Part shown: positions 6,878 to 27,018 of the stretch, piece after piece
Position numbering within the stretch: the stretch's first letter is position 1
Layout: every line of letters begins with the position of its first letter
NCBI RefSeq assembly: GCF_000337035.1
Contig: NZ_AOJL01000005.1
Span: forward strand, 30,690-94,689
From: Halorubrum coriense DSM 10284
Lineage (GTDB): Archaea > Halobacteriota > Halobacteria > Halobacteriales > Haloferacaceae
Direction of reading: 5' to 3'
DNA length: 64,000 nt
Program-made: the position numbers and the translations under genes
Notes under the pieces: model-generated
Databases searched by the model: none
What the model was told of the DNA's origin: nothing
Seen by the model: only the letters and a program-made list of their open reading frames with translations

Positions 6878-7783
6878 ATGAGCGCCATCCACAAACTCGG
6901 CGACGCGTTCGAACGACGGGGGAAGCGAGCGAAGCTCGCGCTCATGGCGGGGCCGGGGGTCGGATGGCTGCTCACGCTGATACTCGTCCCCATGGCGTTC
7001 CTCGTGACGGTGAGCTTCGCGGAGATCAACAGCTCCTACGACGTCGTGTGGTCGTTCTCGGTGTCGAACTACCGGGAGCTCTTCGTCGGCGAGAGCGGGC
7101 TGCTCCAGACGCCGTTCATCGACTCGTTCCTGCTCTCGTTGCGCATCGCGGCGGCGACCACGTTCCTGACGGTCGTCCTCGCGTACCCGGTCGCGTACCT
7201 GCTCACGCGGCTCTCGGGACGGCGGTTCAAGCTGGTGCTGTTCGCGGTGCTGGTCCCGTTCTTCACCATCTTCATCGTGCGCATCTACTCGTGGCTCTCG
7301 CTCTTCGGCAGCCAGGGACTCCTCAACTCGGCGCTGCTCGCGACCCCGCTGGTCTCCGAACCACTCGGTATCTTCGAGTACGGGATCGTGGCGGTGATCA
7401 TCTCGCTCACCCACGCCTTCTTCCCGTACATGCTGTTGACGCTGTACTCGAGCCTCGAAGGGATCGATTACGGCGTCATCGAGGCGTCGCGGGACCTCGG
7501 GGCCTCGCGGCTGGAGATCGCGAAGGACGTCGTGATCCCGCTGTCGGCACAGGGGCTCATCACCGGCTGCGTCTTCGTGTTCGTCCCGGCGCTCGGGACG
7601 TTCATCACGCCGCAGTTCCTCGCCCGCGGGAAGTTCACCATGATCGCCGAGGTGCTCACGGCGCGGATAAACGAGCTGTACGCCATCAACTACGGCGCGG
7701 CCGGGTCGCTCTTCCTCATCATCCCGACCGTGATCGCGTTCGCGATCGTGATGCGTACCACCAGCCTGGAGGCGATGGGGTGA
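6878..7783 (+). CDS. potB: ABC transporter permease, PotB-like
   Basis: A 301-residue inner membrane permease with about six hydrophobic segments, the first near residues 25-48. The cytoplasmic EAA loop that docks on the ATPase is visible as EASRDLGASRLEIAKDVVIP near residue 207. It starts 7 bases after the potD stop and ends 3 bases before the next permease, so the three are clearly one operon. It would pair with the second permease as a heterodimer and with the divergent ATPase. Confidence 0.85.
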   Translation: MSAIHKLGDAFERRGKRAKLALMAGPGVGWLLTLILVPMAFLVTVSFAEINSSYDVVWSFSVSNYRELFVGESGLLQTPFIDSFLLSLRIAAATTFLTVVLAYPVAYLLTRLSGRRFKLVLFAVLVPFFTIFIVRIYSWLSLFGSQGLLNSALLATPLVSEPLGIFEYGIVAVIISLTHAFFPYMLLTLYSSLEGIDYGVIEASRDLGASRLEIAKDVVIPLSAQGLITGCVFVFVPALGTFITPQFLARGKFTMIAEVLTARINELYAINYGAAGSLFLIIPTVIAFAIVMRTTSLEAMG

Positions 7784-9343: not shown

Positions 9344-10702
9344 TCAGTCGTCCGCTTCGGGCGCGCCGAGGCGCGCCGCGCCGTCCAGCGCGCTCTCGTC
9401 GACGGCGCTGGCGACCGCCTCGTCGCGGCGCAGGTGACACGCGGCGTAGTGGCGGCCGTCGCTCAGGGTCGACTCGATCTCGTAGGCGGGCTTCGCCGTC
9501 GCGCAGACGCTCTCGTCCGCGAACCGCTCCGTCAGGAGCGCCTCGGCGTCGTCCCACTCGTCGCGCTCGATATGGCCGAGCGCCTCGTCGAGCAGCGTGC
9601 CCGCGTCACCGCTCGGCACGCCGCCGTCGAAGTACCGGCTCCGGAGCGCGTCGGGGTCGGTCTCCTCGAACGCCCGGCGCTTCACCGCCCGCTGGAACCG
9701 CACGACGCTCCGCCACGTCTCGTCGGTCATCTCGTACGCCTCCGGCTGGATCAGCTTCGGACACCGCGTCCGGAAGCGACAGCCCGAGGGCGGGTCGATC
9801 GGCGACGGCACGTCGCCGGACAGCAGCTCGTCGCGGCCCCCGCTCCGCGGGTCCGGAACCGGGATCGCGTCGAGCAGCGCCCGCGTGTACGGGTGTTTCG
9901 GGTTCTCGAACAGCTCCTCTTTGTCGGCCAGTTCGACGACGTTCCCGAGGTACATCACTGCCACGCGGTCGGAGATGTGCCGGATGACGCTCAGGTCGTG
10001 CGCGATGAAGAGGTACGTCAGGTCGAACTCCTCCTGCAGCTCCTCCATCGTGTTGAGCACCTGCGCTTGGATCGAGACGTCGAGCGCCGACACCGGCTCG
10101 TCGCAGACGATGAAGTCGGGGTTCACCGACAGCGCCCGCGCGAGGTTCACGCGCTGGCGCTGCCCGCCGGAGAACGCGTGGGGGTACCGGTTGTAGTGTT
10201 GCGGGTCGAGCCCAACCTTCTCTAACAGCTCCTTGGCACGGGCCTCCCGGCCCTCCTCGTCGAGCATCCCGTGAGCCTGCATCGGCTCCTCGACGATCGG
10301 CCCGACCTTCATCCGCGGGTCGAGCGACGACTGCGGGTCCTGGAAGATCATCTGCATGTCCTTCCGCATACGCCGCAGCGGCTCGCCGGACAGCGACGCG
10401 AGGTCCTCGCCCTGGAAGTAGACGCTCCCGCTCGTCGGTTCGAGCAGCCGGAGGACGGTCCGCGCGAGCGTCGACTTCCCGCAGCCGGACTCGCCGACGA
10501 GCCCGAGCGTCTCCCCCTCCTTGATGTCGAAGCTCACGCCGTCGACCGCGCGGACGTCCGAGGACGACCGAGAGACGTACGGGAACTCGTCGCCGAGAGA
10601 CACGCCGCCGAGGAGGCCGCTGTCGTTGTCGAAGTACTTGCACAGGTCTCGGACCTGGAGCAGGGCGTCGGGGTCCGACTCTGCGGGGCCGACCCCGCTC
10701 AT
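9344..10702 (-). CDS. dppF: Dipeptide/oligopeptide ABC transporter ATPase (DppF-like)
   Basis: A 452-residue ATPase, last gene of a five-gene peptide-type import cluster. Walker [10 protein letters not shown] is at residues 70-78, with signature FSGGQRQR, Walker [13 protein letters not shown] and the switch His in IAHDLS. The oligopeptide-type C-terminal motif CRFRTRCP follows. The final 100 residues are longer than in bacterial DppF and include CATAKP and HYAACHLR, reminiscent of the Cys-containing tail seen in many archaeal members. It overlaps dppD by four bases (ATGA). Confidence 0.88.
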
Positions 10703-11820
10703 TCCGCCTCACCCCCCGTCTCGGTGAGGCCGGCGGAGAACCCGCTCCCGGTCTCCGTCTCGATCGCCGGGCTGTCGCCGTACCCCACGTCGAACGCGTC
10801 GTGTTTCACGCACGCGCCCGTGTGCGTCGCCTCGCCCTCGTCGCTCAGGTCCCGCAGGTCCGGGTGGACCTCCCGGCACACCTCCCGGGCCTCGGGGCAC
10901 CTGGAGTGGAACCGGCAGCCCGAGGGCGGGTTGATCGCCTCGGGCATCACCCCCTCGATCGGTCTGAGCTCGTCGACCGTCTTGTCCGGTCGCGGCATCG
11001 AGTCGAGCAGCGCCGACGTGTACGGGTGTTTCGTGTCGTAGAACAGGTCGTCGACCTCGGCCTGCTCGATGATCTCGCCGAGGTACATCACGTTCACGCG
11101 GTCGCAGATCTCCGCGACGACGCTCATGTCGTGGGTGACCCAGATGAACGACGTGTCGTACTTCTCTTGCAGCGCCGTCACCATCTCGAGGATCTCGCCT
11201 TCGACCGTGACGTCGAGGGCGGTCGTCGGCTCGTCGGCGATGATCAGGTCCGGCTGGCAGGCGAGCGCCATCGCGATCAGCACGCGCTGCCGCATCCCGC
11301 CGGAGAACTGGTGGGGGTACTCGTCGTACCGCGACTCCGGCGCGGGGATCCCGACTTCCCGGAGCATGTCGATCGCCTCCTCCTTCGCCTCGGCCGGGTC
11401 GAGGTCGCGGTTGATCTCGATGAACTCCCGGAGCTGTCCCCCGACCGTGAACACGGGGTTCAGCGACTCCATCGGGTCTTGGAAGATGATCGCGATCTCG
11501 CGGCCGCGGATCCGCTTCCGCATCTGGGTCTCGGTGAGCATCTCGTCGCGCGGCCGCAGTTCGCCGGCGTCGCCCTCTTCGAGCCCGAAGATCGTCTCGC
11601 CTTTGAACTCGATCTCGCCGCCGACGATCTCGCCCGGGCTGTCGACCAGCCGGAGGATGCTTGAGGTCGCGACGGACTTGCCCGCGCCCGACTCGCCGAC
11701 GAGCCCGACGATCTCTCCCTCGTACACGTCGAAGGAGATCCCGTCGACGGCGCGAACCGTTCCGTCTTCGGTGAAGAACTGTGTCTTGAGATCGCGTACG
11801 CTGAGTAGTGGTTCGGTCAT
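10699..11820 (-). CDS. dppD: Dipeptide/oligopeptide ABC transporter ATPase (DppD-like)
   Basis: A 373-residue ATPase, partner of DppF. Walker A GESGAGKS lies near residue 39, with FSGGMRQR, Walker [13 protein letters not shown] and VTHDMS. The C-terminal [10 protein letters not shown] motif is typical of the Opp/Dpp ATPases and may bind an Fe-S or metal site. It follows dppC by one base and overlaps dppF. The long spacer near residues 85-100 ([20 protein letters not shown]) before the Q-loop is usual for this family. Confidence 0.88.
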
Positions 11821-11821
11821 A

Positions 11822-12802
11822 TCAGTTGTTTATCCGCGGGTCGAGAGCGTCTTGGAGGCCGTCGCCGAGGATGTTGAAGCCGATGACGGTGATCAGGATC
11901 GCGATGCCGGGGAAGAGGCTGAACGTCGGTGCCGGAAGCATGTAGTTCCGGGACGCCGAGAGCATCTGCCCCCACGACGGCGTCGGCGGCTGCGCGCCGA
12001 AGCCGAGGAACGAGAGGCCCGCGACGATGAGGATGCTCACGCCGATCTGGAGCGTCGCCTGGACGAGCACCGGCGCGAAGCTGTTCGGGATGACGTGCCG
12101 GAGGATGATGTTCCGGTCTTTCACGCCGGCCGCGCGGGCGGCCTCGATGTAGTCCTCCTCGCGCACCGAGACGACGCGGGAGCGGATCAGCCGGTTGAAC
12201 ACCGGTATCGACGTGATCCCCACGCCGATCATCGCGAAGCTGAGGTCCCGCCCGAACGCGGTCATGAACGCGATGACCAACACGAGGAACGGGATCGCGT
12301 AGATGGTCTCCGTGACGCGCTGGAGCACGTCGTCGATCCAGCCGCCGTAGTAGCCCGACACCGCGCCGATCAGCGTGCCGCCGACCAGTCCGATCGCGGT
12401 GGCCATGAACCCGACGGTGATGGCGATCCGCGTGCCGTAGAACAGCCGGCCGAAGATGTCGCGCCCGCGGTGGTCGGTCCCCATCGGGTGTTCGAGCGTG
12501 CCCTGCCCGTACTGGTTCTCCATCCCCACGGGCGGGAGCAGTCGCCGGACCTGTTCGGGGTCTTGCACCGGGCTGTACCAGATCATCTCCGCGACGCCGT
12601 AGTCGAAGACGTAGTAGTCGATCGAGGCGAGCAGCGCGACGAGCGTGATCGCCCCGACGGTGTAGATCCCGATCCGCGCCGTCGTGTCGCGTTTCACCTG
12701 TCGCAGGGTGTATCGGAGGCCGACGCGGGCCTCGATCTCCCCGGCACCGGTTCCCTCCGTGTCCGCCGAACCGTCGGTCGCTGAGTCTGTTTCGGTAGCC
12801 AT
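11822..12802 (-). CDS. dppC: Dipeptide/oligopeptide ABC permease (DppC-like)
   Basis: A 326-residue permease. A cytoplasmic N-terminal region with a basic TLRQVKRDTTAR stretch is followed by the first membrane segment (IGIYTVGAITLVALLASI), and then about five more. The EAA loop reads EAARAAGVKDRNIILRHVIP. The HPMGTDHRGRDIFGRL segment before the transport domain is diagnostic of OppC/DppC. Its first base overlaps the last base of dppB, so the genes are translationally linked. Confidence 0.88.
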   Translation of the reverse strand: MATETDSATDGSADTEGTGAGEIEARVGLRYTLRQVKRDTTARIGIYTVGAITLVALLASIDYYVFDYGVAEMIWYSPVQDPEQVRRLLPPVGMENQYGQGTLEHPMGTDHRGRDIFGRLFYGTRIAITVGFMATAIGLVGGTLIGAVSGYYGGWIDDVLQRVTETIYAIPFLVLVIAFMTAFGRDLSFAMIGVGITSIPVFNRLIRSRVVSVREEDYIEAARAAGVKDRNIILRHVIPNSFAPVLVQATLQIGVSILIVAGLSFLGFGAQPPTPSWGQMLSASRNYMLPAPTFSLFPGIAILITVIGFNILGDGLQDALDPRINN

Positions 12803-13800
12803 TATGATTCGTCACCGTAGGCGACGCGGGGGTCGATGTAGGCGTACGCGACGTCGGTGATGATGACGCCGATGACGAACGCGACGCCGAACATGAACGT
12901 CGTCCCCATGATGAGTTCGTAGTCCTGGTTGTTGATCGCCGTGATGATCAGCCGGCCCATGCCCTGGATCTCGAAGACGGTCTCGGTCAGCACCGCACCG
13001 CCGAGCGCCGTCGAGAGGCCGAGGCCGACGATCGTGATCACGGGCAGCTGTGCGACTTGGAAGGCGTGTTTCCGGACGATCTTCGACTCGGAGACGCCGT
13101 AGGCGCGGGCGAGCTTGACGTACTCGCCCTGGAGCGACTCCACCATCGACGACCGCTCGATCCGCGTGATCTGCGCCATCTGGAGCGTCCCGAGCGCCAC
13201 CATCGGCATCGCGAGGTGATACAGCGAGGTCCGGACGACCTGGAGCTGCGTCTCTGCCCCCCTGATGTCGGCCGGCGACGCCCACGGGAGCGGGAGGCCT
13301 CGGGCCGGGAACCACCCCAAGTAGAACGCGAAGACGATGATGAGCATGAGGCCGATCCAGAACGACGGCGTCGACACGCCGATGAGCGAGACGATCCGCG
13401 AGACGTGGTCGGCGGGCTTGTTGCGCCGCTTCGCCGAGATGACGCCGAGCGGAATCGCGGTCACGATCGCGAAGATGAACGCCGACACGGTGAGGTACAG
13501 CGTCACCGGGAGCCGGAGCAGGATCATCTCGAGGACCGGTCGGTCGTAGTAGATGCTCTGCCCGAGGTCCCCGGTCGCCACCCCGGCGAGGTAGGTCAGG
13601 AATCGCTGGTACGCCGGGCGGTCCAGCCCGTACCGCGCCCGGATCGCCTCGACCTGTTCCTGTGCCGGGCTGGGCCCCAGCATGATCTCGACCGGGTCCC
13701 CCGGAATCTGGTTCGCGAGGAAGAACGTGATCGTGATGATTCCGATCAGTACCGGGATCGCCTGTGCGAGTCGCCAAAGTGTGTACCGTAAGAGCCCCAT
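12802..13800 (-). CDS. dppB: Dipeptide/oligopeptide ABC permease (DppB-like)
   Basis: A 332-residue permease with about six membrane segments and the OppB-type N-terminus (YTLWRLAQAIPVLIGIITIT). The loop LARAYGVSESKIVRKHAF is the EAA motif for docking on the ATPases. It lies 179 bases downstream of dppA on the same strand. That gap holds a TATA-like palindrome at 13833-13844 but no gene, so dppBCDF may be transcribed both from dppA and from an internal promoter. Confidence 0.88.
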   Translation of the reverse strand: MGLLRYTLWRLAQAIPVLIGIITITFFLANQIPGDPVEIMLGPSPAQEQVEAIRARYGLDRPAYQRFLTYLAGVATGDLGQSIYYDRPVLEMILLRLPVTLYLTVSAFIFAIVTAIPLGVISAKRRNKPADHVSRIVSLIGVSTPSFWIGLMLIIVFAFYLGWFPARGLPLPWASPADIRGAETQLQVVRTSLYHLAMPMVALGTLQMAQITRIERSSMVESLQGEYVKLARAYGVSESKIVRKHAFQVAQLPVITIVGLGLSTALGGAVLTETVFEIQGMGRLIITAINNQDYELIMGTTFMFGVAFVIGVIITDVAYAYIDPRVAYGDES

Positions 13801-13979: not shown

Positions 13980-15626
13980 TTACTCGACCGCGACGTTGTT
14001 GTGCCCGGTGAAGAGCTGGATCTCGCTGGAGATGGCGTGGGAGCTGAAGTCCGACACGCTGTTGTGGATGCCGTAGGAGTTCTTGAGGTTGTACGCCGGG
14101 ATGTGGACGCGCCCCTCGAGCAGCTCCGTCGTCGCGTCGATGTAGAGCTGGCGGCGCTCCTCGTAGTCCGCGCTCTCGCGGGCCTGCGTCAGCATCCCGG
14201 AGGCCTCGTCGTACTCGTGGAACGTCCCGTTGGTCGTCCCCTCCACCTCTTGGCTCAGCAGCTGGTACGCGAACGCGTCCGGGTCGGGCGAGCCGGACCA
14301 GCCGAGCGTGTACATGTTGTACCGCTCCGGGTCGCCGGTGACGTAGGCGTCGAGGAACGTCCCCCAGTCCAGCCGCTGGACTTCGACGTTGTTGAAGCCG
14401 GCGTTCTGGAGCCCGTCGCCGATCGAGATGCCGATCTGTTCGCGCTTGTCGTCCGGCGGGACGATGATGCGCCAGTTGTAGTCCATGTCCACGCCGGCCT
14501 CCTCGAACAGCGCCTGCGCCTGCTCGAGGTCCTGGTCGTGGGAGATGTCGCCCCACTCGTCGAGCGGGAAGTCCCACTCCTCGGCCATCGTCCGCGGGTA
14601 CGGACTCACCTGTCGGACGCCGGCGGGCTCGACGAAGTTCTCGACCGCCTGGTCCATCGAGACGCAGTAGTCGACCGCCTCGCGGACGAGCGGGTCGGAC
14701 GTCGGCCCCGCGCCGCAGTTGAACGCGAGGTAGAAGTACCCGATGCCGGGCGTCTCGCTGATCGAGGCGCTCTCGTTGTTCCGGACCGTCTCGTACAGCT
14801 GCGGCGGGATGGTCTCGATGATGTCGACGTTGCCGGTCTCGAGCTCCGTCACCCGCGTGGTCTGCTCTTCGATCGGCTCGAACTCGACGGTCGCGAGGTT
14901 CGGCAACCCGTCGGCGTCGCCCCAGTAGTCGTCCCAGCGTTCGAGCGTCGCGTAGCTCTCTGGCTCCCACTCGGCCAGCTGGAACGGCCCCGAGCTGACG
15001 GGGTCGGTGTTGTACGCCTCCCGGTCGCTCGTCCGGACCTCTTTGTTGACGACGCTCCGGACCAGCGCGGTCTCGAACGCCCCGTAGGGGTACGCCAGGT
15101 CGAACTGGACGGTCGTCTCGTCGATCACTTCCGCCGTGTCGACCATGTTGACCTCGGAGGCGTTCTCCGTCTCCTCCTCGGCGGGCGCGAGGACCGTGTG
15201 CATCACGTCCTCCGCCGTCACCGGGTCACCGTTCTGGAACATGGCGTCGTCGCGGACCGGAACGATGTACCGCGTCCCCTCGCGCTCGACCGTCGGCATG
15301 TCGGAGGCGATCCCCGGCACGAGCCCGACGCCCTCGTCGTACTCGTAGATCCCGTCGAAGATCCGGCCCGCGATCTGCGCGGACGGGACGTCGTTGATGA
15401 TGACGGGGTCCATGTCGAGGGGTCCCTTCACCTGCGCGAAGTACAGCTCTTGGTTCGGGAGGTCGCTCCCGTCGCCGCCGTCCGACCCGTCGGAGCCGTC
15501 GCCGCCGTCGCCGCCGTCCGACCCGTCTCCGCCGCCGGCACACCCGGCGAGGAAGAACGAGGTGCCGGCTGCCCCGCCGGCGAGGACCTTCCGTCGCGAA
15601 ATGCGTCGTGTGTTTTCTCGTCGCAT
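13980..15626 (-). CDS. dppA: Dipeptide-type ABC transporter substrate-binding lipoprotein
   Basis: A 548-residue family-5 solute-binding protein (SBP_bac_5). It starts with a Tat signal (SRRKVLAGGAAG near residues 10-21) and a lipobox ending at Cys29, then a Gly/Asp/Ser-rich linker. The fold order is canonical: N-terminal lobe with VTAEDVMHTV, DPVSSGPFQL, the second lobe, then the C-terminal segment with WSGSPDPDAF. This contrasts with the permuted protein at 23551. A TAATAAGG box (15649-15656, minus strand) lies 23-30 bases before the start, supporting a leaderless mRNA. Ligand unknown; peptides are the family default. Confidence 0.85.
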   Translation of the reverse strand: MRRENTRRISRRKVLAGGAAGTSFFLAGCAGGGDGSDGGDGGDGSDGSDGGDGSDLPNQELYFAQVKGPLDMDPVIINDVPSAQIAGRIFDGIYEYDEGVGLVPGIASDMPTVEREGTRYIVPVRDDAMFQNGDPVTAEDVMHTVLAPAEEETENASEVNMVDTAEVIDETTVQFDLAYPYGAFETALVRSVVNKEVRTSDREAYNTDPVSSGPFQLAEWEPESYATLERWDDYWGDADGLPNLATVEFEPIEEQTTRVTELETGNVDIIETIPPQLYETVRNNESASISETPGIGYFYLAFNCGAGPTSDPLVREAVDYCVSMDQAVENFVEPAGVRQVSPYPRTMAEEWDFPLDEWGDISHDQDLEQAQALFEEAGVDMDYNWRIIVPPDDKREQIGISIGDGLQNAGFNNVEVQRLDWGTFLDAYVTGDPERYNMYTLGWSGSPDPDAFAYQLLSQEVEGTTNGTFHEYDEASGMLTQARESADYEERRQLYIDATTELLEGRVHIPAYNLKNSYGIHNSVSDFSSHAISSEIQLFTGHNNVAVE

Positions 15627-22281: not shown

Positions 22282-23475
22282 ATGAAACGGGCGACCGTCG
22301 TGGTCGGGCTCCTCGCCGTCGTCGTCGTCGGGCTCGCGCTCTCCGGGTTCTTCGCCGGGCCGACCGCGGAACCCGCGCCCGGCGACGTCGCGGACGACAG
22401 CCTCATCTCGGTCGCGGGGGACTACCGGCTCTGGCCGCACACGAGCCGGAGCCGGAGCGTCGAGGGGCGGACGCTCGCGATCAACCTCGTGTTCCACGCC
22501 GACGCGGACGCGACGCGGGCCGCCATCGAGGGCGACGCGGCCGCGAACTGGGAGGAGACGGACCCCGACGAGGCGGCGGCGACGGTCGACGACGGCGATC
22601 AGGTCCGCGAGTTCGTCGCCCGCGACTGGCGGGACGCGCACAGCTCGCTCCGCTACTCGTACGTCGAGGGCCCGACCGGCGGCGCGTGGCTCACGGAGAC
22701 GTTCGAGCTCCACGACGGGCGGTACCTCGGCGTCCGCGACCACCTCCGCGCGTACGAGGCCCCCGACGGCTCCTACACCGCGATACAGGCCCACGCGGAG
22801 TACTACGACTGGTTCCGACTCCGTCACACCGTCCCCGACATCGACGCGCCCGCGACGCGGCTGGAGGGGGAGTTCACCGGGTCGGACCGCGCGACGGACG
22901 TGCGACGCTAGTACCGCGGCATCGACGGCGGCCGCAGCGACGGCTGGCTCTCCGTGATCGAGCTGGCGACCGCCGCGGCGCTCGTCGGGACGCTGCTCCG
23001 CCGGCGCACCCGCGAGGCGGCCGTCGACCTCGCCCGTCGGCTCCGGACCGACGCGAGACGACACGGCGCGGCCGCGACGCTGGGAATCGCGCTCGGCGTC
23101 GTCCTCGTCGGCGTCCGCGTCGCGGGCGTGACGCTGGAGACGGCGCTGCCGGGGGTGTCGCCGAAGGCGATCGCGAGCCCGCTGTACCTCGTCCTCGCGG
23201 TCGGGCTGCCCGCGCTGGTCGTCCGGCGCGCGCCGCGCTCGGACCCGGCGGCCGCGTCGGTCGCCGTCGTCCTCGGGCTCGGCGCCGGGTTCCTCGCCGA
23301 CTTCGCCGCGCTCGGGGTGGCCGTCCCCCCGGACCTCATCGCCCACCGGGCGGCGCTCCTCGCCGCGCTCGCCGTCGTCGCCGTCGGGTGCGCGGTCGCG
23401 GACCGAGCGACCACCGCCGTCGGCCTCGCGGCGTGGGCCGTCGGGCTGGCGCTCCCGCTGGCGAACGCGATCTGA
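22282..23475 (+). pseudogene. Membrane protein gene split by an in-frame TAG (amber) codon
   Basis: One continuous reading frame of 398 codons from the ATG at 22282 is interrupted only by TAG at 22909-22911. The first part (209 residues) has a membrane anchor (MKRATVVVGLLAVVVVGLAL), then an extracellular acidic domain with SRSRSVEGRTLAINLVFHAD and AHAEYYDWFRLRH. The second part, in the same frame, has about six hydrophobic segments. The bases after the stop continue with YRGIDGGRSDGWLSVIE and show no other stop. Reading TAG as mutated TGG (Trp) would give an unbroken protein. It could be a pseudogene, a sequencing error or a gene read as two parts. Function unknown. Confidence 0.7.
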
Positions 23476-23550: not shown

Positions 23551-25464
23551 ATGACACGACCGATCAGTCGACGAGCGGCGCTCGCGGGCCTCGGCCTCGC
23601 GGCCGCCAGCGCCGGCTGTCTCGGTCGCACGGAGAACATCGCCGGACGGAACCCGCGCGAGCAGCTGACCCTCGAGATCAACGCCACGCCGGCGGACGCC
23701 GACCCCAACGGGATCCGCATCGCGAGGCAGCTCGAAGAGCACCTGACCGCGGTCGGCGTCGACGTCCGACTCAACACGGTCGGACAGACCGACCTCTGGC
23801 GGAAGGTGCTCATCAATCAGAACTTCGACCTCTACGTCGGGCAGTTCGTCGAGACGGAGCCGTTCGACCCCGACGCGCTGTACGGGCTGACCCACTCGCG
23901 GTTCGTCGCGGAGTCGGGGTGGCAGAACCCCTTCGGCCTCACGGAGATGGCCGTCGACGACCTGCTGGACCGACAGCGCCGGGCCACCGGTCGCGACCGC
24001 GACGACGCCGTCGCCGCGCTCCAAGAGACGGTGTGCGAGCTCCAGCCCTTCTCAGTCGTCGCGTTCCCCGACGCGCTCACCGCCGTTCAGGAGAACCGGT
24101 TCGACGGGTGGACGGCGGACCGACAGCCGCTCTCCGTCACCGGGCTCCTCGGCCTCGACCCCGTCGCTGCCGGCTCCGGGGACGGCGGCGCCGCGACGAA
24201 CGCGTCGACAGGCGGGAACGAGACGGCGGCCGACGCGGACGCCGACGGGGCGGCCGGTGACGCCGCAGACTCGACCGGGGAGGCCCTCCGGCTCGTGACC
24301 ACCGACGACCGGATCACGGAGAACTGGAACCCGATCGCCGCCGAGTACCGGAAGTACGGGACCTTCACCGGACTGTTGTACGACCCGCTCGCCCGCGCGG
24401 ACGGCGACGAGGTGTTCCCCTGGCTGGCCGCCGACTGGGAGCGGGTCGACGAGACGACGCTCGACGTCTCGCTCCGGGACGCCCGGTGGCACGACGGCGA
24501 GCCCGTGACGGCGAGCGACGTCGCGTTCACCTACGAGTTCCTCCGCGACACCTCGCTCGGGAACGTCGAGACCCCGGTGCCGGCCCCGCGGTTCCGCGGC
24601 CGCAGCTCCCTCGTCGAGGGGGCGCGCGTCCGCGACGACGCGACGGTCAGGCTCACGGTGCCCGACGTGAACGAGACGGTCGCCGCCAGGGCGCTCCGGG
24701 TGCCGATCCTCCCGGAACACGTCTGGTCGGAGCGGGCCCACGCCGCGACGATCGCCGGCTTCGAACTCGACTTCGAGACCACGGAGGCGGTCGTCTCCAA
24801 CAACCCCGACCCCGTCGGAAGCGGCCCGCTCCGGTTCGCGGAGGCGACCGCGGGGGAGTCGGTCGCGTTCGAGCGGAACCCCGACCACTTCCTCGTCCGG
24901 TCGGCGTCCGAAGACGACTCGGACGCGGTCGACGAGCCCGCGGACCCGCGAGCGGGGATTCCGCTCCGATACCACGGGAAGCCGGCGTTCGACCGGCTCC
25001 GAATCGACGTGCTGCCGTCGGACATCTCGGCCGTGGAGACGGTCGCCGAGGGGCTCGCGGACGCGACCGTCTCGAACCTCGGCCCCGAGTCCGTCCCGCG
25101 GATCGGCCGCTCGGCGGACACCCGACTCGTGAGCGGCCGGTCGGCGGCGTTCTACCACGTCGGGTACAACGTGCGGCGGAGCCCGCTGTCGAACCCCCGG
25201 TTCCGGGCGGTGATCGCGCGGCTGATCGACAAGGCCGCGGTCGTCGACGACGCCTTCGACGGCTACGCCCAGGCGGCGACCTCGCCGCTCGCGGCGTCCC
25301 CGACCGAGATCCCGGAGTCGGTGACGTGGGCCGACGGGAGCGACCCGATCCACCCGTTCTTCGACGACGACGGGTCGCTCGACGTCGAGGCCGCTCGGGC
25401 GGCGCTGCGCGACATCGGGTACCGGTTCGACGACGAGGGGCGGCTGCTCTCGCGGGGCCGATGA
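23551..25464 (+). CDS. Solute-binding lipoprotein, SBP_bac_5 family, apparently circularly permuted
   Basis: A 637-residue Tat lipoprotein: SRRAALAGLGLAAASAGC with Cys24. It matches peptide/nickel-type binding proteins but in a changed order. Residues about 35-190 (EQLTLEINATPADAD to FDGW) are what normally forms the C-terminal segment, with NFDLYVGQF and FDPDALYGL. Then comes a Gly/Asn/Asp-rich linker (about residues 205-245), then the usual N-terminal lobe (LLYDPLARADGDEVFPWLA, VTASDVAFTYEFL, DPVGSGPLRF) and the central part. The chain stops at ARAALRDIGYRFDDEGR, just where the C-terminal segment would start. No permease or ATPase gene adjoins it. It overlaps the PAP2 gene by four bases. 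TATA-like GATATACC is about 30 bases upstream. Confidence 0.8.
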   Translation: MTRPISRRAALAGLGLAAASAGCLGRTENIAGRNPREQLTLEINATPADADPNGIRIARQLEEHLTAVGVDVRLNTVGQTDLWRKVLINQNFDLYVGQFVETEPFDPDALYGLTHSRFVAESGWQNPFGLTEMAVDDLLDRQRRATGRDRDDAVAALQETVCELQPFSVVAFPDALTAVQENRFDGWTADRQPLSVTGLLGLDPVAAGSGDGGAATNASTGGNETAADADADGAAGDAADSTGEALRLVTTDDRITENWNPIAAEYRKYGTFTGLLYDPLARADGDEVFPWLAADWERVDETTLDVSLRDARWHDGEPVTASDVAFTYEFLRDTSLGNVETPVPAPRFRGRSSLVEGARVRDDATVRLTVPDVNETVAARALRVPILPEHVWSERAHAATIAGFELDFETTEAVVSNNPDPVGSGPLRFAEATAGESVAFERNPDHFLVRSASEDDSDAVDEPADPRAGIPLRYHGKPAFDRLRIDVLPSDISAVETVAEGLADATVSNLGPESVPRIGRSADTRLVSGRSAAFYHVGYNVRRSPLSNPRFRAVIARLIDKAAVVDDAFDGYAQAATSPLAASPTEIPESVTWADGSDPIHPFFDDDGSLDVEAARAALRDIGYRFDDEGRLLSRGR

Positions 25465-26327
25465 CGCCGCTCCTGTCCGTCCTCGCCTCGGTGCTCGCGT
25501 GGGTCGGGACGCTGCTGGCCGTCGCGAGCGTCGCGGTGATCGGTCCCGCGCGGCTCCGCGAGGGGTGGGGCGGGGTCCGCGGGCGGATCTGGGACGCCCG
25601 CCGCGGCGTCGCCGTCCTCTGTGCGGTGCTGGTCGTCAGCGCCGTCGGCCGAAGCTCGTTACAGGTGGTCTCGGAGCTGTTCGGGCTCCAGGCGACCGCG
25701 CTCATCTACGCGCTCGAGGGCGGGTTCGTCGCGTGGGTCCAAGCGACGTTCGCGACGCCCGCGCTGACCGCGTACCTCTCGTGGGTGTACGTGTACGGCT
25801 ACGCGTTCCTGCTCGCGTTCCCGGTCGTCGCCTACCTCGCGCTCCCCCGGACGACGACGCTCAGGCGCGTCCTCGTCGCGTACGCGCTCAACTACGGGAT
25901 CGGGCTCGCGCTGTACACGGCGGTGTTCGCCCACGGACCGCGGAACGTGATGCCCGACATGGTGACGCCGCTCCTCTTCACCAATCGGCCCGACGTGATG
26001 GCGCTCACGAGCGAGGTGAACGTGAACACGAACGTCTTCCCGTCGCTCCACACCTCGCTCGCGGTCACCGTCGGGACGTTCGCCGTGCTGACCCGCGACG
26101 AGTACCCGCGGTGGACGCCGGTCGCGGTGTGGCTCTCGCTGTCGGTCGTCGTCGCGACGATGTACCTCGGCATCCACTGGCTCACCGACGTCGTCGCCGG
26201 GTTCGCGCTCGCGTTCGGCTCCGTCGCGCTCGCGTACCGGACCGTGGACCCGCGGGCCGAGGGCGTCGAGCCGAGTGGGGAGCCGGGCGACGAGTCGCCG
26301 CCGTCGGAGCCGAACGCGAGCGACTGA
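25461..26327 (+). CDS. PAP2-superfamily membrane phosphatase
   Basis: A 288-residue integral membrane protein with about six segments. The phosphatase motifs are VFPSLHTSL (residues ~193-201, PSGH-type with His) and the third motif in MYLGIHWLTDVVAG (His and Asp), as in phosphatidic acid phosphatase / inositol phosphorylceramide synthase relatives. It probably removes phosphate from a lipid or polyprenyl-phosphate outside the membrane. The ATG overlaps the stop of the permuted binding protein gene, so the two are translationally coupled, although no functional link is known. Confidence 0.8.
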   Translation: MTPLLSVLASVLAWVGTLLAVASVAVIGPARLREGWGGVRGRIWDARRGVAVLCAVLVVSAVGRSSLQVVSELFGLQATALIYALEGGFVAWVQATFATPALTAYLSWVYVYGYAFLLAFPVVAYLALPRTTTLRRVLVAYALNYGIGLALYTAVFAHGPRNVMPDMVTPLLFTNRPDVMALTSEVNVNTNVFPSLHTSLAVTVGTFAVLTRDEYPRWTPVAVWLSLSVVVATMYLGIHWLTDVVAGFALAFGSVALAYRTVDPRAEGVEPSGEPGDESPPSEPNASD

Positions 26328-26388: not shown

Positions 26389-27018
26389 ATGAGCGCCGAC
26401 CGACGGACCATCACGGTGTACTCGGACTACGTCTGCCCGTTCTGTTACCTGGGTCGAGAGTCCCTCTCACAGTATCAGGCGAACCGCGACGAGGAGCTCG
26501 CGATCGACTGGCGACCGTTCGACCTGCGGAGCCAGAAGCGCCGCCCGGACGGGACGATCGACCACTCCGTCGACGACGGGAAAGACGACGAGTACTTCGA
26601 GCAGGCGAAACAGAACGTCCGCCGGCTCGCCGACGAGTACGGCGTGGAGATGGACCTCGACATCGCCGCCGACGTCGACTCGCTGTCCGCCCAGATCGTC
26701 TCCTACTACCTCCGCGAACACGCCGACTACGAGACGTGGCTCGCCTTCGACGAGGCGGTCTTCGCCGCGCTCTGGGAGGACGGCGAGGACATCGGCGACG
26801 CCGACCTGCTGGTCGAGATCGCCGTCGACGCTGGCGCCGAGGCCGACGAGGTCCGGTCGGCGCTCGACGACGAGACGCTGCGGGAAACGGTCAGGGAGCG
26901 GTTCACCGAGGCGCAGCGGGAGGGGGTAACCGGCGTGCCGACCTTCGCCTACGACGGGTACGCGGCGCGCGGCGCCGTCCCGCCCGAGCAGCTCGAACGG
27001 CTCGTCGAGGGGACCTGA
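26389..27018 (+). CDS. DsbA-family oxidoreductase (FrnE-like)
   Basis: A 209-residue thioredoxin-fold protein without a signal peptide, so cytoplasmic. The redox motif CPFC is at residues 16-19 (YSDYVCPFCYLGRES), and the cis-Pro loop is TGVPTFAYDGYAARGAVPPE near the end. FrnE/2-hydroxychromene-2-carboxylate isomerase-like members reduce or isomerise disulfides and respond to oxidative stress. The length is normal. Confidence 0.85.
   Translation: MSADRRTITVYSDYVCPFCYLGRESLSQYQANRDEELAIDWRPFDLRSQKRRPDGTIDHSVDDGKDDEYFEQAKQNVRRLADEYGVEMDLDIAADVDSLSAQIVSYYLREHADYETWLAFDEAVFAALWEDGEDIGDADLLVEIAVDAGAEADEVRSALDDETLRETVRERFTEAQREGVTGVPTFAYDGYAARGAVPPEQLERLVEGT

Follow-up and report, generated by a model that had tools for sequence, protein, structure and literature searches.

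TpMglB-2 (Tp0684) of Treponema pallidum is a naturally permuted ABC-type solute-binding lipoprotein (PMC4990184). It is a cluster B glucose-binding protein for which a crystal structure and glucose binding have been shown; the proposed names for its type, families of which occur in treponemes and Gram-positive bacteria, are 'Type Ic' and 'Cluster Bc', and its authors suggested that the new topology might suit tethering (PMC4990184). TpMglB-2 is the sole natural precedent that we found in the open-access literature, in which we found no report of permuted archaeal, Opp-type or SBP_bac_5 proteins. Our search for a solved structure in the permuted order described here found none.

The protein studied here, cpSBP, is encoded in a 64,000-nucleotide stretch of the genome of Halorubrum coriense DSM 10284 (the window). 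Like TpMglB-2, it is, by its sequence, a natural circular permutation of a solute-binding lipoprotein that is predicted to be membrane-tethered. Unlike TpMglB-2, which is bacterial and belongs to cluster B, it represents an archaeal kind of cluster C (Opp/Dpp) with two break sites, known from sequence and a predicted model. Compared with DppA, OppA, AppA and NikA of cluster C, cpSBP is homologous over the whole chain and holds the same segments, but their order is rotated: the chain opens with what is normally its C-terminal third and closes with the normal middle part, and its gene has no permease gene beside it.

Segment order and predicted fold of cpSBP

The cpSBP gene (23551..25464, + strand) encodes an SBP_bac_5 lipoprotein of 637 aa. 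If the normal C-terminal third is named S1, the normal N-terminal part S2 and the normal middle S3, the usual order is S2-S3-S1, whereas cpSBP reads S1-S2-S3. The protein begins with a twin-arginine (Tat) signal peptide and a lipobox ending at Cys23 (23551..23619, +; RRAALAGLGLAAASAGC; MTRPISRRAALAGLGLAAASAGC). Across an alignment of 45 sequences, R7 and R8 were invariant and C23 was nearly so (at least 90%). The conserved Tat motif and lipobox thus predict that cpSBP is exported and membrane-tethered. All further features of the gene also lie on the + strand. S1 comes first (residues 40-196, 23668..24138; DppA ~350-487) and is followed by a linker that bridges the two ancestral termini, C to N (residues 204-244, 24160..24282); it varies among relatives, and of it residues 209-242 are predicted to be disordered. 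Then comes S2 (residues 246-449, 24286..24897; DppA ~32-205), separated by a variable acidic insert (residues 450-471, 24898..24963) from S3 (residues 472-632, 24964..25446; DppA ~207-339), with which the chain ends. The acidic insert lies near the cut site of a second permutation, found in Thermoproteota and described below. Segment profiles matched cpSBP once each, with 192 bits for S1, 240 for S2 and 163 for S3; as cpSBP and its relatives are among the sequences used to build these profiles, the scores place the segments but carry no independent evidential weight.

Against Pfam, cpSBP matched a single family, SBP_bac_5 (PF00496), with 155.8 bits at a cut-off of 32.4, and NCBIfam gave only partial, sub-threshold matches to equivalogs. 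The Pfam match is split: residues 41-116 correspond to profile positions 288-363 (20.9 bits, E 2e-4) and residues 287-628 to positions 1-282 (138.5 bits), so that S1, the weakest-matching segment, has modest Pfam support when taken alone. This bears out the reading of the first-pass annotation, made from the sequence, that the first mature part corresponds to the normal C-terminal part and that the chain then takes up the N-terminal lobe and stops where the C-terminal segment is due. Indeed, cpSBP ends with ...LRDIGYRFDDEGRLLSRGR, and the normal continuation, EQLTLEI..., is found here among the first mature residues. An unpermuted SBP_bac_5 protein encoded in the same window (13980..15626, - strand), which adjoins its own Dpp permease and ATPase genes (10699-13800), matched the profile in one piece (positions 2-363).

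For an alignment in swapped order, the mature chain was cut and rejoined at successive positions and scored against a profile of 27 unpermuted solute-binding proteins (575 positions). The best single match of native cpSBP reached 182.7 bits and covered profile positions 40-371, whereas cuts at residues 196-232 gave up to 226.2 bits in one continuous match from 40 to 530; cuts elsewhere scored lower. The segment profiles also tiled solved structures in the normal order, without overlap in DppA (1dpp; S2 32-205, S3 207-339, S1 350-487) and similarly in AppA (1xoc; S2 45-208, S3 208-346, S1 363-498). Among ~165 ORFs with all three segments, a count that includes some genes twice, 86 had the order S1S2S3, 62 the normal order S2S3S1 and 17 the order S3S1S2, and none had an anti-cyclic order (S1S3S2, S2S1S3 or S3S2S1). 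Homologues ranging from Halorubrum to Natrialba, and one from a Marsarchaeota genome, conserve both this order and the two ends of cpSBP.

AlphaFold2, run on an alignment of permuted relatives, returned a single confident fold (pLDDT 82.9, pTM 0.81); pLDDT fell below 50 in residues 1-33 (signal) and 209-242 (linker) and in two short loops, and nowhere else. The best Foldseek matches were SBP_bac_5-type structures, covered in part by sequential superposition (TMt ~0.3-0.5), as expected for a chain whose order is rotated. A Marsarchaeota relative gave a weaker model (pLDDT 73.4, pTM 0.67) with a similar Foldseek pattern. The Pfam and PDB matches of cpSBP were cluster C proteins and not of the cluster B sugar-binding fold. 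Because each segment occurs once, in a rotated and conserved order with conserved ends, because known structures are tiled by the same segments and because one confident model results, we conclude from sequence and prediction that cpSBP is a true circular permutation. Its ancestral N- and C-termini are fused, and its new termini lie in the loop that corresponds to DppA ~340-350. As it holds the whole SBP_bac_5 chain complement but not the canonical N-to-C order of cluster C, we class it as a permuted homologue of SBP_bac_5 rather than as a canonical member.

Other origins of this arrangement can be weighed against the same data. A partial duplicate was rejected, each segment being present in a single copy without a flanking remnant: tblastn of cpSBP against 3 kb on each side found no remnant (best E 0.088), and tblastx matches in the flanks were set aside as they ran through all frames of the high-GC DNA. 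Domain shuffling, by which the N-terminal part would come from another solute-binding protein gene without permutation of a single one, was considered possible for TpMglB-2 by its authors (PMC4990184), and the weak match of S1 would fit it; yet single copies with complementary borders, and cyclic orders only among the sampled proteins, make it improbable for cpSBP. It is still less probable that a C-lobe fragment and a nearly complete solute-binding protein fold as two independent domains. The long disordered linker between the two parts in Halorubrum would suit such an arrangement, but neither part is complete, the whole chain is predicted as one fold with high pTM, and in distant relatives (for example, L064 and L086) the linker is down to a few residues. 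The joining of the old termini by a Gly/Asn/Asp-rich linker, as first annotated, therefore holds for Halorubrum but not for the distant members, and the near absence of the linker there marks its long form as a late Halorubrum elaboration. Although the draft source genome comprises 69 contigs and a TAG unseen in sampled relatives interrupts the gene immediately upstream, an assembly or gene-calling artefact is hardly conceivable and is refuted by conservation across genomes, as the identical ORF and ends recur in hundreds of independent genomes, complete chromosomes included.

A conserved SBP-PAP2 gene pair in haloarchaea

Directly downstream of cpSBP lies a gene for a PAP2 family membrane enzyme (25461..26327, +; best Pfam match PAP2_3), which overlaps the cpSBP stop by 4 bp, and no permease or ATPase gene was found among the adjacent genes; the first-pass annotation had seen both the coupling to PAP2 and the lack of an adjacent transporter. 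The pairing is conserved: PAP2 followed directly on the same strand at 57 of 60 haloarchaeal cpSBP loci, often with a 4-bp overlap and across deep divergence. Two of the three exceptions are contig ends, and at the third (L087) PAP2 follows a tandem copy of the SBP gene. All 58 homologous PAP2 matches carry the motifs PS[LMI]H and G.H[WY]..D. As in the window, no permease gene was detected next to the permuted SBP gene in the haloarchaeal loci L031-L090. Tandem copies were seen at L075, L077, L078, L081 and L087, mostly as SBP-PAP2 pairs; the pair is tandemly duplicated in Natronococcus and Natrialba, and in Natrinema two permuted SBP copies stand in tandem.

The arrangement is widespread among haloarchaea. 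In a set of 391 Halobacteria genomes, each at least 90% complete, ~260 by hand count had the same full-length arrangement, with a match at E <1e-100. Full-length matches in this order were seen in most Halorubrum genomes and also in Halobellus, Natronocalculus, Halosimplex, Halorussus, Natronomonas, Haladaptatus, Halorientalis, Natrialba, Natrinema and others. Of 60 PAP2-linked proteins, 56 carry a QNP motif, part of WQNPFG in S1, which was absent from all 26 other haloarchaeal SBPs of a census sample, 25 of which are permuted. Its distribution points to a ligand or partner that may be specific to this family.

The neighbourhood holds two further genes. Upstream of cpSBP is a conserved membrane-protein gene without a Pfam family (22282..23475, +), which encodes ~418 aa in relatives (418 aa in Halobellus). 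In the window it is split by an in-frame TAG (22909-22911) that was absent from all 37 relatives checked, and which reflects either a recent pseudogene or a sequencing error. An LssY_C-like lipid-enzyme domain, suggested by the look of the product, was rejected, as Pfam gave it no support. A DsbA-like gene downstream (26392-27018) has + orientation here and in the two closest relatives of the window, but most other Halorubrum loci carry its homologue, at ~65% identity, in - orientation; the difference in strand reflects either a local rearrangement or a different paralogue.

Permuted orders across archaeal SBP_bac_5 proteins

The genome of the window encodes eight SBP_bac_5 proteins, of which three are permuted. 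The other two permuted genes are divergent, near 7322 (-) and 10774 (+) on contig 29 (L200, 1-19000), and each has its own Dpp permease and ATPase genes. In a census of 29 haloarchaeal genomes, ~52 of ~140 SBP_bac_5 proteins, counted by hand, showed the shortened Pfam match that is typical of permutation, and 25 of 26 loci sampled from this class had the order S1S2S3. We estimate from these counts that roughly one-third of haloarchaeal SBP_bac_5 proteins are S1S2S3-permuted. At 22 of the 25 sampled S1S2S3 loci, DppB/C genes were neighbours.

A sample of Thermoproteota contained S1S2S3 proteins and also S3S1S2 proteins; the latter represent a second permutation, whose cut lies at DppA ~206 rather than at ~345 as in cpSBP. 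Nearly all permuted Thermoproteota loci examined (n = 20) lie beside DppB/C/D genes. A Marsarchaeota genome (G404) has each of the three cyclic orders among its SBP_bac_5 proteins (L139, L140, L141 and L142), and its S1S2S3 protein adjoins DppB, DppC and DppD-type genes. The position of such permuted proteins beside DppB/C/D genes indicates that permutation is compatible with ordinary ABC import. The S1S2S3 proteins of Thermoproteota and the ABC-linked ones of haloarchaea share the first break site with cpSBP, but differ from it in their DppB/C/D neighbours. Several of the permuted Thermoproteota forms also have a C-terminal stalk and membrane anchor. Both the wide occurrence of permutation and its second site lie beyond what the first-pass annotation saw.

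Of the Thermoproteota S3S1S2 loci (L144, L150, L161, L165, L168, L190-L193 and L195), several encode a C-terminal stalk and a transmembrane anchor after S2. Many Thermoproteota ORFs of 820-910 aa (L256-L282) begin with S3-S1, followed by an S2 that is hard to detect; they probably belong, as diverged members, to the second permutation. At L179, L245 and L246, the haloarchaeal break seems to lie ~35 residues further upstream, so that the chain starts ahead of the helix found just before the usual cut; this is possibly a third break position.

All sampled bacterial proteins had the normal order S2S3S1. In searches with an archaeal query, which limits their sensitivity, the matches at E 1e-25 included no permuted order, either in the 121 genomes from the phylum of a Sphaerobacter MAG or in the 150 from that of a Granulosicoccaceae MAG (271 genomes). 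We take these phyla to be Chloroflexota and Pseudomonadota, respectively. As bacterial relatives are unpermuted, the normal order is taken as ancestral.

Trees were built from segments that were aligned separately and then concatenated. The haloarchaeal PAP2-linked proteins formed one clade (support 100), which adjoined the ABC-linked haloarchaeal permuted proteins, and Thermoproteota S1S2S3 proteins were placed elsewhere. All S3S1S2 proteins fell into one clade, with an S1S2S3 protein as sister. A single S1S2S3 clade, as expected from a single origin, was rejected on two data sets (p-AU 0.020 and 0.012), values to be read with the facts that deep branches are weak, some rows are long and the group was chosen after seeing a tree. 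More than one origin of the S1S2S3 order is thus probable. A broader account would be that archaeal Opp/Dpp-type SBPs have undergone recurrent functional permutation at two or more cut sites, the first probably opened repeatedly, with some one-third of haloarchaeal SBP_bac_5 proteins affected, and that one branch left ABC transport as a sensing or delivery subunit for PAP2; taken in all its parts, we regard this account as evenly balanced.

Proposed role and significance

We consider it likely that cpSBP is a naturally permuted cluster C (Opp/Dpp-type) solute-binding protein whose fold, tether, PAP2 role and origin are as follows. The N-terminus, with its predicted Tat export and lipid anchor, leads into the normal C-terminal third. 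From what is known of the family, the two-lobed clam-shell fold and its cleft would be kept and solute would still be captured. The main physical change would then be the position of the lipid tether, which moves from the equivalent of DppA residue 1 to the vicinity of residue 350, a site that, by the domain borders of DppA, presumably lies on the opposite lobe. The most likely origin would be an in-frame tandem gene duplication, followed by trimming at both ends. In the haloarchaeal PAP2-linked branch, the protein would no longer serve an adjacent permease, and the synteny suggests that it may act as an extracellular recognition subunit of the PAP2 enzyme, presenting a ligand or gating the enzyme. 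We propose this partnership with PAP2, and recognition as its most likely form, tentatively and on gene adjacency.

A somewhat doubtful but possible alternative is that cpSBP, although permuted, is an ordinary importer subunit that serves a distant Dpp permease, with PAP2 as a mere neighbour. Dpp operons are present in the genome of the window, most other permuted haloarchaeal SBPs adjoin DppB/C, and those haloarchaeal proteins that stand closest to it in the tree are ABC-linked, all of which fit an orphan of this kind. Against such a role, the PAP2 pairing, often with its 4-bp overlap, persists over deep divergence, PAP2 was duplicated along with the SBP gene in Natrialba and Natronococcus, and no permease was found near any PAP2-linked haloarchaeal locus. 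We lean slightly towards a subunit that works with PAP2.

That a single archaeal family has two permutation sites is more surprising than the window protein alone. All three rotations occur in one family, once within a single genome; unpermuted homologues are found in the same cells, and permuted members stand next to complete Dpp transporters. This allows testing of whether docking on the permease is altered when the lipid tether sits elsewhere on the fold, and it bears on how permutations arise, through duplication and trimming, and on why archaea, in contrast to the sampled bacteria, keep them. As Pfam-like domain tools see only part of permuted SBPs, their ligand and transporter assignments are unreliable. 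Haloarchaea also turn out to conserve a puzzling SBP-PAP2 gene pair. Overall, the family provides a natural test of how far the ends of a protein can move without loss.
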